A DNA stretch of 64,000 nucleotides, taken from Chloracidobacterium sp. (lineage in GTDB: Bacteria; Acidobacteriota; Blastocatellia; Chloracidobacteriales; Chloracidobacteriaceae). The notes below the pieces were generated by a model, which searched no databases, was not told the DNA's origin, and saw nothing but the letters and a program-made list of their open reading frames with translations. The stretch is taken from positions 1-64,000 of the forward strand of contig JANWUV010000004.1 of the NCBI GenBank assembly GCA_025057975.1. The letters run 5' to 3'. Shown here piece after piece: positions 31,433 through 63,903 of this stretch. Made by a program: the position numbers and the translations under genes. The number at the start of each line of letters is the position of its first letter. Position 1 is the first letter of the stretch.

Positions 31433-32446
31433 TCATGGCGTCGCCGGGCGTCGGTTATCGCCACACTCCTCAATCACTTCAGTGCTGTGTTTTGAGCCCG
31501 TGAAAACGCTGAGACACGCTTGCAGGTCGGACGGGAGCGGGGAAGTGAACCGCATCGGTCGTCCCGACACCGGATGAACAAAGGCAAGCTGCGCGGCATG
31601 GAGAAACTGCCGTCCAAGGCCCATCACCGCCCGCCGCTGCGCTGCGTCACGCAGTTGCTGGTCGCGTCCCTGTCCGTATAACGGGTCGCCGATCACCGGA
31701 TGCCGAATGTGCGCGCAATGCACGCGAATCTGGTGTGTCCGCCCAGTTTCAATTTGGACGTCAAGCAACGTAACCACGCCCAACCGTCGCAGGACGGTAT
31801 AACGCGACCGCGCTGGTCGTCCGGCCGGGTCAACGGTCATTTTGAGACGGTTGTTGCGGTCGCGAGCAATGGGCGCGTCAATAACGCCCGCACCGACGAC
31901 ATCGCCGTGAACCAGCGCCACGTAACGTTTCTCCACGGTTCGCGCACGAAACTGTCCGGCCAAGTGTTCGAGCGCCGCGTCAGTTTTTGCCACAACTATG
32001 ACGCCGGAAGTATCCCGGTCAAGGCGATGAACAATCCCCGGACGGAACGCCACGCCGCCCGGAAGCCGACCGCCAAAGTGAAATGCTAGCGCATTGGCGA
32101 GCGTCCCTCCGCCGACACCGGCCGCCGGGTGAACGACCTGACCGGCTGGCTTGTCAATCACGATGACAGCTTCGTCCTCAAATAAAATCGTCAGCGGCAA
32201 GTCCTCTGGCTGAAGGTCAGTCGTCACTGGCGCCGGAATGTCGGCGTCAATATCGTCGCCCGCCACAACCCGATAGCTGGCGCGCGCCAGGCGTCCATTG
32301 ACTCGTACTTCGCCATCGGCGATAGCCCGCTGAATGCGGGACCGACTAACATTCAGCCGTTCGGCCAGAAACACGTCGAGCCGCAGACCGGCCGCCGCCG
32401 GCGGAACCTGGAGTGCGTCGGTGTCAAGCGCAGCGCGGTTGTCCAT
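31433..32446 (-). CDS. Ribosomal large-subunit pseudouridine synthase, RluD family
   Basis: A 337-residue enzyme converting uridines of 23S rRNA to pseudouridine. Residues ~20-80 are an S4 domain (LRLDVFLAERLNVSRSRIQRAI), and the catalytic motif is HRLDRDTSGVIVVAKTD. GRTHQIRVHCAHIRHPVIGDPLYG is the family's C-terminal signature. The ATG at 32446 lies inside the window where the upstream gene ends, overlapping it slightly beyond its stop region; a longer in-frame extension has no family resemblance. Confidence 0.94.
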   Translation of the reverse strand: MDNRAALDTDALQVPPAAAGLRLDVFLAERLNVSRSRIQRAIADGEVRVNGRLARASYRVVAGDDIDADIPAPVTTDLQPEDLPLTILFEDEAVIVIDKPAGQVVHPAAGVGGGTLANALAFHFGGRLPGGVAFRPGIVHRLDRDTSGVIVVAKTDAALEHLAGQFRARTVEKRYVALVHGDVVGAGVIDAPIARDRNNRLKMTVDPAGRPARSRYTVLRRLGVVTLLDVQIETGRTHQIRVHCAHIRHPVIGDPLYGQGRDQQLRDAAQRRAVMGLGRQFLHAAQLAFVHPVSGRPMRFTSPLPSDLQACLSVFTGSKHSTEVIEECGDNRRPATP

Positions 32447-32454
32447 CGAGCAAC

Positions 32455-33681
32455 TTACAGACTTGCGCCTGGCAGCAGGGCCGTAATCGCCTGAAACGTC
32501 TTGGTCAACCACTCGCCAAGTTGTTCCGTGGGGAGGTCGTTGCCGTACGACAGATAATAAACCGTACCGTTGGGCGTCGGCTTACACTCGCCGCCGAGGC
32601 TTTTGGTGCGTTCCTCCCGCAGTAGTGGGGATTCGGCGATTTCGTACAAATCCACCGAGGTAATCAGGTCATAGACCGGCTTGCGCCGCAAGATGATGAC
32701 CACGGGGAACGTCCGCGCCATGCCCAACGAGCGAAAAGCAAGGTCATAACGGTGCATCAGGTAGTCTTCTTGATTGCTGTGTTCTTCCGTGACCTTGACC
32801 TTCCTCGGATCCAGTCCCTGCACAAACTGCTGGATGATCTTTTTGCGCTCATTGAACAGCTTGAAATACTGCACCGCCGTCAACCGTTTGACGGTCGGCG
32901 ATGGCGGCGGAACGAGCGACGGCACGGCCGAGGGCGTCAGGTTGCGCCCCGGAGGATTAGACAGCGCAGGTTCATTTTTGGTCGGCGCCGGCAGGCGAGT
33001 ACTGCTTTTTTCGCCCAAATCAAGAATGAACCCGACATCATCATTAGGTGCCGACGCCGGCGGCGACGGGAGACGCGGGCTAACCGCGCCAGCCGGTCCT
33101 GGTGAAACCACGGTCGCCGAAGGGTCGAAGCGTGATGTCGCCGGGGACGACACGACCGTTGTCACCGGCGACAGCCCCTCTTGGGAGGCGCCGGATGTCA
33201 CCGTAGCGGGCGATGACGGGATGGAGGCGTCCACCGGCGAGGATGGAGCGACGGCTTCCGTCGCAGCCGGCGTCACCACCACCGTTGGTGGAATGAAGAT
33301 GTCCGCTGGTGGAGACGCCGACGGCGCTACCACTACCGTCGGCGGAATGAAGGTGTCCAGTTCGGTGGGCGGCGGGCTGAGCGGTGCGGCGTCCGGCGCC
33401 CGCCTCAGTGATTTCAGGGTCGGTGGGTCTTCGATAGCGGGGGCTGCCCAAGCCGACGGTACCGGTTCGCTCACCGGCGCGCTTTCCACCGCCGGAAGCT
33501 GCGGCGCAAACAGTCGCGCCTGCTCCTCTTCGCTCATCTTGACGGTCAGTTCCGCGTCCACAGGCGCAGCGGCAGGCGGCGCAGCCGCCAGTTCCAGCGC
33601 TGGCGTCAGCGGCAGACCGTGGTAGGGACAAAACCGCTTGCCGTCATCCCATAGAGTTTCGCACTTTGGACAAGCCTTCAT
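32455..33681 (-). CDS. Zinc-ribbon protein with Pro/Val-rich repeats, unknown function
   Basis: A 408-residue protein that I do not recognise as a family. The N-terminus carries CPKC (3 residues into the chain) and FCPYHG, giving a probable zinc ribbon. The middle (~40-265) is Pro/Ser/Thr/Val-rich and includes a repeated FIPPTVVV motif (DTFIPPTVVVAPSA, DIFIPPTVVVTPAA). The C-terminal ~140 residues form a globular domain (RLTAVQYFKLFNERKKIIQQFV, then HRYDLAFRSLGMARTFPVVIIL). Layout suggests a signalling or scaffolding protein with a flexible linker. It precedes rluD-like on the same strand. Confidence 0.7.
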   Translation of the reverse strand: MKACPKCETLWDDGKRFCPYHGLPLTPALELAAAPPAAAPVDAELTVKMSEEEQARLFAPQLPAVESAPVSEPVPSAWAAPAIEDPPTLKSLRRAPDAAPLSPPPTELDTFIPPTVVVAPSASPPADIFIPPTVVVTPAATEAVAPSSPVDASIPSSPATVTSGASQEGLSPVTTVVSSPATSRFDPSATVVSPGPAGAVSPRLPSPPASAPNDDVGFILDLGEKSSTRLPAPTKNEPALSNPPGRNLTPSAVPSLVPPPSPTVKRLTAVQYFKLFNERKKIIQQFVQGLDPRKVKVTEEHSNQEDYLMHRYDLAFRSLGMARTFPVVIILRRKPVYDLITSVDLYEIAESPLLREERTKSLGGECKPTPNGTVYYLSYGNDLPTEQLGEWLTKTFQAITALLPGASL

Positions 33682-33757: not shown

Positions 33758-34282
33758 TCAGCAAGCCGGTATGCGCGCCAGTGTCGCGTCAAGCGGCGGA
33801 TGATTCGGCACAAAATCGCAGAGGTAACGTTCAACGACACAACCGCCGCCGTCAATCAAAAACTGCGCCGGTAAGGGAACACCCAGCGCCGCACCCGTGC
33901 CGTACCTCTTGAACACCGTCCAGTCCGGGTCGCTCAGAAACGGGTAAGGCAACGCCAAGTCTTCGGCAATCAGCTTTGACGTGGCGACATCCGTGGTGCT
34001 GACGACCACCACTTCCGCCCCCTTGGCTTGAAATTCCGCATATCGTTCACGCAACTCGACCAGTCGCGGATAGCAGAATGGTCAGATGAAGCCGCGATCC
34101 ACAATGCGCGTCAGGTAAAGCAGACACCAACGCGGCGCGACTGCCGACAACGTAAACGGCTGCCCTGCAACGTCCGGCAGGGTAAAGTCAGGGGCCACAG
34201 TCCCGACTGCAACCTGCGACCGACTTGGATAGGGAATAAAGTTGCCCTTGAACGGCAATTCCAGAATCTTGGCAATGTTCAT
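33758..34282 (-). CDS. Selenocysteine-containing peroxiredoxin-like/redoxin protein
   Basis: Read through an in-frame UGA (34084-34082) this is one 174-residue thioredoxin-fold AhpC/TSA-type protein with selenocysteine at residue 67. The N-terminal half has the family motif VGTVAPDFTLPDVAGQPFTL; then RIVDRGFI-U-PFCYPRLVELRERYAEFQAKGAEVVVVS continues without break, placing the UGA where the catalytic Cys of the CPxC motif belongs. The C-terminal half holds PYPFLSDPDWTVFKRYG and PAQFLIDGGG, again peroxiredoxin-like. A hairpin follows the UGA at 20 nt. It probably reduces peroxides or disulfides. If Sec were not inserted, the gene would be cut into two useless pieces. Confidence 0.85.
34050..34068 (-). 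promoter_or_regulatory. Candidate bacterial SECIS hairpin (redoxin gene)
   Basis: On the minus strand CGCGACT-GGTCG-AGTTGCG folds into a 7-bp stem (one G-U pair) with a 5-nt loop GGUCG, and the loop begins 20 nt after the UGA. The E. coli fdhF SECIS also carries GGUC in its apical loop at a similar distance. It supports selenocysteine insertion at 34084-34082. Confidence 0.75.
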
Positions 34283-34326
34283 CGTTCGTCCTCAAGGCCG
34301 CGGCTTCGACCGGCGCGGCGGTTTTA

Positions 34327-34794
34327 TCAGATTTCTTCCGGCTTAAAGCCACGGGTTTTTTTGTCTTTGTAAGCTTCGCCGTACATTTTGAGCCGTGTCC
34401 GCAGGCTTGCCAGACGCTCGCCGTAGTTGGGGTAGCGCCGGATGAGCTTTTCCAAATTGACCATGTACCACGGGCCGAACAGCTCGCGCAGCTCCGGCAA
34501 AAACGGCTCCAGTTTGGCGAAGACAGCGAAGCACTCCGTATTGGCGTCAAAAAACAGCGCCTCATCTAGCGCGCCGTGGTTGACCAACGCCGCCGCCATG
34601 TCCCAGTAAGTTGTCACCTGCCGCCAGTACGCACCGTGAACAGGATTGCGCTTGTCGAAAAGCAGGTCTTTGATGTCTTGGGCGGATTCGGGAAAGAACT
34701 TGAAGGCGACAAAATCACGCGCTTCGCGCATCACCGGCTCGCGGCGGAGTTCGTACAGCTTTAGGATGAGATGGGCGTCTTCGTGCGTGGCCAT
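34327..34794 (-). CDS. Conserved hypothetical soluble protein
   Basis: A 155-residue, mostly helical, charged protein that I do not recognise. Typical stretches are ARDFVAFKFFPESAQDIKDLLF, TTYWDMAAALVNHG and PFLPELRELFGPWYMVNLEKLI. There is no signal peptide or membrane segment. Its codon use matches the neighbours, so it is likely a real gene. The ATG at 34794 follows an AGAGG ribosome site. It sits 44 bp before the selenocysteine redoxin on the same strand and may be co-transcribed with it. Confidence 0.65.
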   Translation of the reverse strand: MATHEDAHLILKLYELRREPVMREARDFVAFKFFPESAQDIKDLLFDKRNPVHGAYWRQVTTYWDMAAALVNHGALDEALFFDANTECFAVFAKLEPFLPELRELFGPWYMVNLEKLIRRYPNYGERLASLRTRLKMYGEAYKDKKTRGFKPEEI

Positions 34795-63062: not shown

Positions 63063-63171
63063 GCGTGTAGAGTTCGCCGCATGGTTATTTTGGTCGAAGC
63101 GACGCGCCGGCAAAGCTGAACCTTGCCGAACGGCGATAAAGCCGCCGCCTATGTGAGGAGAACTATGACCG

Positions 63172-63903
63172 ATGGCTGAACTTTCTGACGCCAGTCTCCT
63201 TGTCCGGTCGTTTATGCGAGCGTATCGCTACACGGTGTCGAGTTGGCGGCCGGCACATCTAAGCAAGCCGCTGACCGCGTGCAAGGTCGGTCTGGTGACG
63301 ACGGCGGCCTTTCACCTGCCGACGCAGCCTACCTTTGATCTCAGATTGGCGGGCGATCCGTCGTTTCGGGTGATTCCAACGGATGTCGATTTGGCGACGC
63401 TTAGGGTGGGGCATGTGAGTCCGTCGTTTGACCATACGGGCATTGAACGCGATCCGAACTTGGCGCTGCCGATCACGCGCTTTCAGGAGCTCGTCGCCGA
63501 GGGGGTAGTGGGGCGGTTGAATGAGCGGGCGTGGTCGTTCTGCGGCTCGATTCCCAAGCCCGGCGAACTCATCAATCGAACCGCCCCGGAAGCGGCGCGT
63601 CAGGCGCGGGCGGACGGGGTGGAGGTCGCCCTGCTGACGCCTGTCTGACCGATGTGCAATCAGTCGGTCGGACTGATTCAAGCTGCCTTTGAGAATGAAG
63701 GGATCGTGACGGTTTCGATTTCGCTGTACCGTTTTGTGACGGAGAAAGTGCGCCCGCCGCGTGCGCTCTGGGTACCGTTTCCCCTGGGGTATCCCTTGGG
63801 TGAGCCGCATAACGCGGCGCTTCAGCGGCGGGTGATTCTGGCGGCGCTGGATTTGTTGACGACGGAGGAGCCGTTGCCGGTCATCCGTGATTTTCAGCCA
63901 TGA
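63172..63903 (+). CDS. Stand-alone GrdB-like selenoprotein (glycine/betaine/proline reductase B family)
   Basis: Read through a UGA at 63646-63648 this is a 243-residue protein with selenocysteine at residue 159. The sequence AEVALLTPV-U-PMCNQSVGLIQ is the UxxC active-site block of the GrdB/PrdB family, and FHLPTQPTFDLRLAGDPSFRVIP, then HVSPSFDHTGIERDPNLALPI, fit the family N-terminal half. Classical GrdB is ~430 residues and works with GrdA and GrdE; this shorter form has no such partners nearby, so its substrate is unknown. GAGGAG lies upstream; the nearer ATG at 63165 is out of frame. A SECIS-like hairpin follows the UGA. The next gene overlaps by ATGA. Confidence 0.88.
63658..63678 (+). 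promoter_or_regulatory. Candidate bacterial SECIS hairpin (GrdB-like gene)
   Basis: AATCAGTC-GGTCG-GACTGATT folds into a perfect 8-bp stem with a GGUCG loop; the loop begins 17 nt after the UGA, within the distance used by bacterial SelB. The loop is identical to that in the redoxin gene at 34050-34068. Confidence 0.8.

Follow-up and report, generated by a model that had tools for sequence, protein, structure and literature searches.

A peroxiredoxin-like gene of Chloracidobacterium with an in-frame UGA very probably encodes a UxxC selenoprotein

Results

The window, by which we mean the whole analysed stretch of 64,000 nucleotides, belongs to contig JANWUV010000004.1 of a member of Chloracidobacterium, a genus of phototrophic life. 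On its minus strand, positions 33758-34282 hold a peroxiredoxin-like (Prx-like) gene in one reading frame, which consists of 66 codons (34282-34085), a TGA (34084-34082) and 107 further codons with the terminal stop (34081-33758). The TGA at 34084-34082 is the single stop between the ATG at 34282 and the terminal stop, itself a TGA (33760-33758); an earlier note on this DNA had described two in-phase minus-strand frames split by one TGA, and its coordinates are exact. An AGGA at 34289-34292, six bases 5' of the ATG on the same strand, is a candidate ribosome-binding site by sequence reading. When the UGA is taken as selenocysteine (Sec, U), the read-through protein has 174 residues (MNIAK...DRGFI-U67-PF-C70-YPRLVELRERY...), and the translation together with the structure model places at 34073-34084 the redox motif U67-P68-F69-C70, which the earlier note had named as UPFC. 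The two neighbouring genes also lie on the minus strand and occupy the same place in all seven genomes of the genus: upstream is a gene for a DUF4760 protein (34327-34794), and downstream a gene (32455-33681) that starts at the Met of MKACPKCETLW, of which the first 111 residues were used. The upstream neighbour matches PF15956 with 89.9 bits and is about 90-94% identical in the six other genomes of the genus.

The Pfam family AhpC-TSA (PF00578) matches the read-through protein at residues 26-150, spanning the UGA, with 85.4 bits against a gathering cut-off of 26, and all seven orthologues match it as well; Redoxin likewise matches across the UGA (56.7 bits). The AhpC/TSA-type fold that had been proposed for the joined frames is supported. 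The best NCBIfam match is ResA, at 43.7 bits and below its cut-off of 170, and the best PDB sequence match is also named ResA. In an AlphaFold2 prediction that used the window protein and three orthologues (pLDDT 82.6, pTM 0.82; the five models scored 82.6, 80.0, 67.4, 49.9 and 44.2), a helix comprising residues 70-79 starts at Cys70. The 50 matches listed by a Foldseek comparison with the PDB are peroxiredoxins and proteins of the AhpE, PrxQ/BCP and ResA types.

A search of the family covered 10 genomes, including six further genomes of the same genus and three of other genera. Each of the six contains a full-length orthologue of 83-86% identity with one internal stop, the same TGA, so that codon 67 is TGA in seven of seven genomes, which argues against a sequencing error; six of the seven genes end in TGA and one in TAA. 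In the three genomes of other genera, the matches were only of 4.1e-13 or weaker. The gene represents a divergent branch for which no orthologues outside the genus were found. When the 21 genome pairs were pooled, pN/pS was 0.149 before the UGA (pS 0.585, pN 0.087) and 0.155 after it (pS 0.563, pN 0.087); purifying selection is equal on either side of the UGA. This equality and the retention of TGA in all seven genomes agree with the earlier view that the gene is not a pseudogene, and a TGC or TGT at 34084-34082, which would have spoken against a selenoprotein, is not what the relatives have: they too carry TGA there.

A wider search, through 297 genomes of the phylum, gave matches at E <= 1e-12 in 41, including four of the genus. 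Some matches came without a locus; the comparison comprised 49 loci, 23 from the family search and 26 from the phylum search. In the column of residue 67, these loci have U (14), C (5), T (27), S (1) or a gap (2), and W in none. All 14 U rows read W-U-P-x-C (e.g., FYRGYWUPFC and SRSADWUPYC) and four of the five C rows read W-C-P-x-C (e.g., SRSVDWCPYC and FYRGGWCPFC), the fifth, L035, being of the AhpC type (FTFVCP). Rows with T belong to TPxC peroxiredoxins, in which Thr aligns with Sec67 and the peroxidatic Cys with Cys70. The in-frame UGA is accordingly conserved and faces U or C in homologues, as expected of a selenoprotein gene; of the TxxC pattern of classical peroxiredoxins, only the Cys is present, with Sec at the position of Thr. 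The earlier note had placed the UGA at the catalytic Cys position and had suggested an alignment of homologues to see Cys there. For the CxxC relatives this holds: 5 of the 49 loci, all from relatives of 31-46% identity, have Cys at that position; it does not hold for the TPxC peroxiredoxins (27 of 49), in which the peroxidatic Cys corresponds to Cys70, and no Cys orthologue was found among the seven genomes of the genus.

In a tree of 56 rows, which covers loci of this phylum only and in which long branches were flagged, a TPxC-type group of 31 rows lies on one side of a branch with support 100/99, and the U label requires five changes. The seven rows of the genus form a group (99/98) that joins L048_U at 95/85, and we are unsure of the exact sister of this group because the join was flagged as possible long-branch attraction. 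The TGA at W-U-P-x-C in AhpC/TSA-like genes of other genera of the phylum occurs at loci L044, L046, L047, L048, L050, L052, L055, L056, L058, L063, L065, L066, L070 and L071. Of these 14 U loci, 13 allow a hairpin with another loop to be drawn downstream of the UGA, as chosen by script and without a shuffle control; L047 escaped the pattern used by the script.

Downstream of the UGA, the transcript of the window gene can form a SECIS-like hairpin, CGCGACU-GGUCG-AGUUGCG, of seven pairs (34050-34068, minus strand; loop 34061-34057), which starts 13 bases past the UGA and whose GGUCG loop starts 20 bases past it. For bacterial SECIS elements, a distance of 16-37 nt between the UGA and the apical loop is given in a passage of PMC10778597, and small loops with guanosine are described in a passage of PMC1088965; the hairpin, in frame and with a small G-containing loop at 20 nt on a 7-pair stem, has these features, and its folding energy alone is not significant. 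The minimum-free-energy structure of a 45-base stretch includes the hairpin at an ordinary energy (z -0.96, with 29 of 200 shuffles folding as well), and the centroid structure of this stretch differs from it. Across the seven genomes of the genus, no invariant stretch of the gene reaches 10 bases except one of 20 bases over the hairpin. Codons 72-77 are six consecutive invariant codons; when codon invariance was permuted within degeneracy classes, 7 of 20000 permutations gave such a run. The control, a neighbouring gene that is more conserved (invariant columns 66% vs 57%), shows unbroken invariance over 17 and 12 bases and over a run of five codons, and for this reason the 20-base run alone is suggestive, being neither proof nor extraordinary. 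The invariance of the hairpin among the seven orthologues means that there is no covariation within the selenoprotein gene, and an Rfam scan of the window gave no family at the gathering score. On its two strands together the window has 279 GGTCG sites, and a 7-pair stem (G-U allowed) occurs at only two of them, each just after one of two UGAs.

The second of these UGAs (63646-63648, plus strand) lies in another selenoprotein candidate, at TPV-U-PMC, and supports the SECIS assignment. This gene is PrdB-like by a match below the cut-off (119.8 of 300 bits), its TGA is present in seven of seven genomes, and its hairpin AUCAGUC-GGUCG-GACUGAU (63659-63677, plus strand) has the same loop, 17 bases past the UGA, on a different stem; here too, the hairpin is covered by the single invariant stretch of 10 bases or more, which is 26 bases long. 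In a joint alignment of the hairpins of both genes (14 rows, eight of them distinct), which is a comparison of two unrelated genes and in effect two observations, 56 of 56 cells pair and five of the seven pairs change on both sides, and versions slid along the sequence have 20-36% paired cells; of five measures, two (pairs changed on both sides and additional kinds of pair) are no higher than in shuffles (179 and 498 of 500). A covariance model built from this alignment was used to score 150 of the first-look candidates in each genome (5725 in the own genome and 6217, 6063 and 6624 in the others). In the own genome it gave 12 matches at E <= 10, led by the two UGA sites with 39.1 and 39.7 bits, scores that are high by construction because the model was trained on the orthologues themselves; the next match has 19.9 bits, and of the other ten, eight lack a TGA 2-23 bases upstream and two have a TGA in an unconvincing frame. 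At E <= 0.2, each of three more genomes of the genus, G001, G005 and G006, gave the two orthologous sites; the search of these three also gave two weak matches, and both lack such a TGA.

The genome (3.52 Mb) contains tRNA-Sec, SelA, SelB and SelD, the set required of a bacterium with selenoproteins. The tRNA-Sec scores 64 bits (cut-off 47) and is called by ARAGORN as tRNA-SeC with anticodon tca, a call that counts because one tRNA-Leu also passes the tRNA-Sec model (47.8 vs 47). SelA (527 bits), SelB (359.7 bits) and SelD (385.1 bits, without an internal stop) exceed their curated cut-offs, on which we relied because weak matches at E <= 0.001 occur in control genomes too. The absence of selenocysteine machinery, which the earlier note had held would refute its reading, is thus contradicted by the genome.

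Discussion

We consider it very probable, judging from sequence, that the UGA at 34084-34082 is read as Sec and that the gene encodes a functional selenoprotein. The computed evidence comprises the conservation of the UGA and of the frame, selection on both sides, the hairpin, the machinery, the fold family and the exchange of U and C at the site; with TGA in all seven genomes, the Sec machinery in place and U or C in the relatives' column, the selenoprotein gene postulated in the earlier note has stood up well. We infer the insertion of Sec itself, the binding of SelB, the catalytic cycle and the substrate. SelB with Sec-tRNA(UCA) would bind the hairpin at 34068-34050, and the UGA would be decoded as Sec, yielding the 174-residue protein of Prx-like/ResA fold in which Sec67-x-x-Cys70 would act as a redox pair of the thioredoxin type. 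In this scheme, a disulfide or a peroxide would be attacked by the selenolate of Sec67, resolution by Cys70 would give a selenenyl sulfide, and this bond would be reduced by a thioredoxin-like partner.

In TPxC peroxiredoxins, Thr takes the place of Sec67 and the peroxidatic Cys that of Cys70, which points to a Prx-like UxxC redox protein, most likely a member of a published selenoprotein kind that appears here as a divergent, genus-wide branch. Table 1 of PMC13188914 lists a "Prx-like thiol:disulfide oxidoreductase" (PF00578) with UxxC/UxxU and a "Redoxin family protein" (PF08534) with UxxC, and names WP_010940744.1 as one of the Prx-like UxxC proteins; the Sargasso Sea survey includes a "Prx-like protein" with UXXC in place of TXXU (PMC1088965). 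The window protein shares with these, as far as their published descriptions go, the AhpC/TSA domain, an active-site UxxC that replaces the TxxU of Sec peroxiredoxins and an in-frame SECIS-like hairpin after the UGA, and its U67-P-F-C70 aligns with the UPxC/CPxC of relatives; it differs in the motif context, LTRIVDRGFI-UPFC, the published members being compared by domain and motif description. The UxxC/CxxC proteins of the phylum resemble it in having U or C at the position of residue 67, the same domain in the four that were scanned and drawable hairpins in 13 of the 13 that were folded, but they are 31-46% identical, have W-U-P-x-C where the window protein has I-U-P-F-C, and have the GGUCG loop in 0 of 13. 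PrxQ/BCP and AhpE peroxiredoxins share the fold (3.6e-13 to 7.9e-11 among the matches listed), but they are TPxC proteins, with Thr where the window protein has Sec, and the TPxC rows lie across the branch supported at 100/99. The SelL-related redox protein NF040769 matches across the active site with 39.8 bits, but the window protein is far below the curated cut-off of 120 bits and so falls outside this family. The papers listed in literature searches for this genus are on ergothioneine and its relatives, and among the titles listed, those from more general searches included, none concerns a selenoprotein of Chloracidobacterium.

As for the substrate, we lean slightly towards disulfides rather than peroxides as the main one. 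It is nonetheless quite possible that the selenoprotein is chiefly a peroxidase, with Sec67 peroxidatic or with Cys70 acting as in TxxC peroxiredoxins, instead of a thiol:disulfide oxidoreductase, a reading that is compatible with Sec read-through. The Pfam family, the fold matches to 1-Cys and PrxQ peroxiredoxins and the position of Cys70, where TPxC proteins have their peroxidatic Cys, would favour a peroxidase; against this, ResA types match about equally well, in the NCBIfam search, as the best PDB sequence match and among the fold-match chains, and the published UxxC kind is called a thiol:disulfide oxidoreductase in Table 1 of PMC13188914.

Very improbable, by comparison, is a true stop at the UGA, whether in a pseudogene or in a gene for a 66-residue protein followed by a separate gene from an internal codon. 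Translation table 11 does split the locus into frames of 66 and 98 amino acids, and this standard-code reading cuts the gene in two with loss of the active site; selection, however, is equal on both sides in seven genomes that differ by 14-17% in protein and all retain the same TGA, and one AhpC/TSA match spans the UGA; a stop would also sever the active-site motif. More improbable still is that a suppressor or near-cognate read-through inserts another residue, such as Trp or Cys: the frame is open whatever residue sits at position 67, but the Sec machinery is complete, including a UCA tRNA-Sec, the same GGUCG loop follows both UGAs, and W is found at this column in 0 of the 49 relatives' loci. 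Reading the UGA as Sec would add a divergent, genus-wide Prx-like selenoprotein.

With two unrelated genes that have one common SECIS loop, recognition by SelB in this phylum becomes directly testable. A more doubtful idea is that the whole Sec machinery is kept for as few as two proteins, the genus-restricted UxxC Prx-like protein and the PrdB-like protein, both through a GGUCG-loop SECIS on unrelated stems; in four genomes of the genus, the hairpin model gives no strong sites beyond these two, but it scored 150 of some 6000 candidates per genome, and selenoproteins with other loops would escape it. If true, a two-gene selenoproteome would be a minimal natural test of what SelB requires.

The window was also searched for UGA-bridged frames by other means. 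At the thresholds used, a search by codon usage did not return the selenoprotein gene; a search for UGA-bridged frames that the window has in common with two relatives, for each of which about 120 kb was used, recovered the site at 34084. The latter search also gave two minus-strand sites at which a relative has Arg, and plus-strand UGA sites at 31575-32331 and 34443, which were rejected as antisense because they lie opposite long minus-strand frames; those at 32130 and 34443 have TGA in one relative too. The gene at 63646 was missed by this search because the stretches of the relatives do not contain it. The frame of this PrdB-like gene extends over about 63169-63903 on the plus strand, and the TGA at 63901-63903 is probably its true stop.
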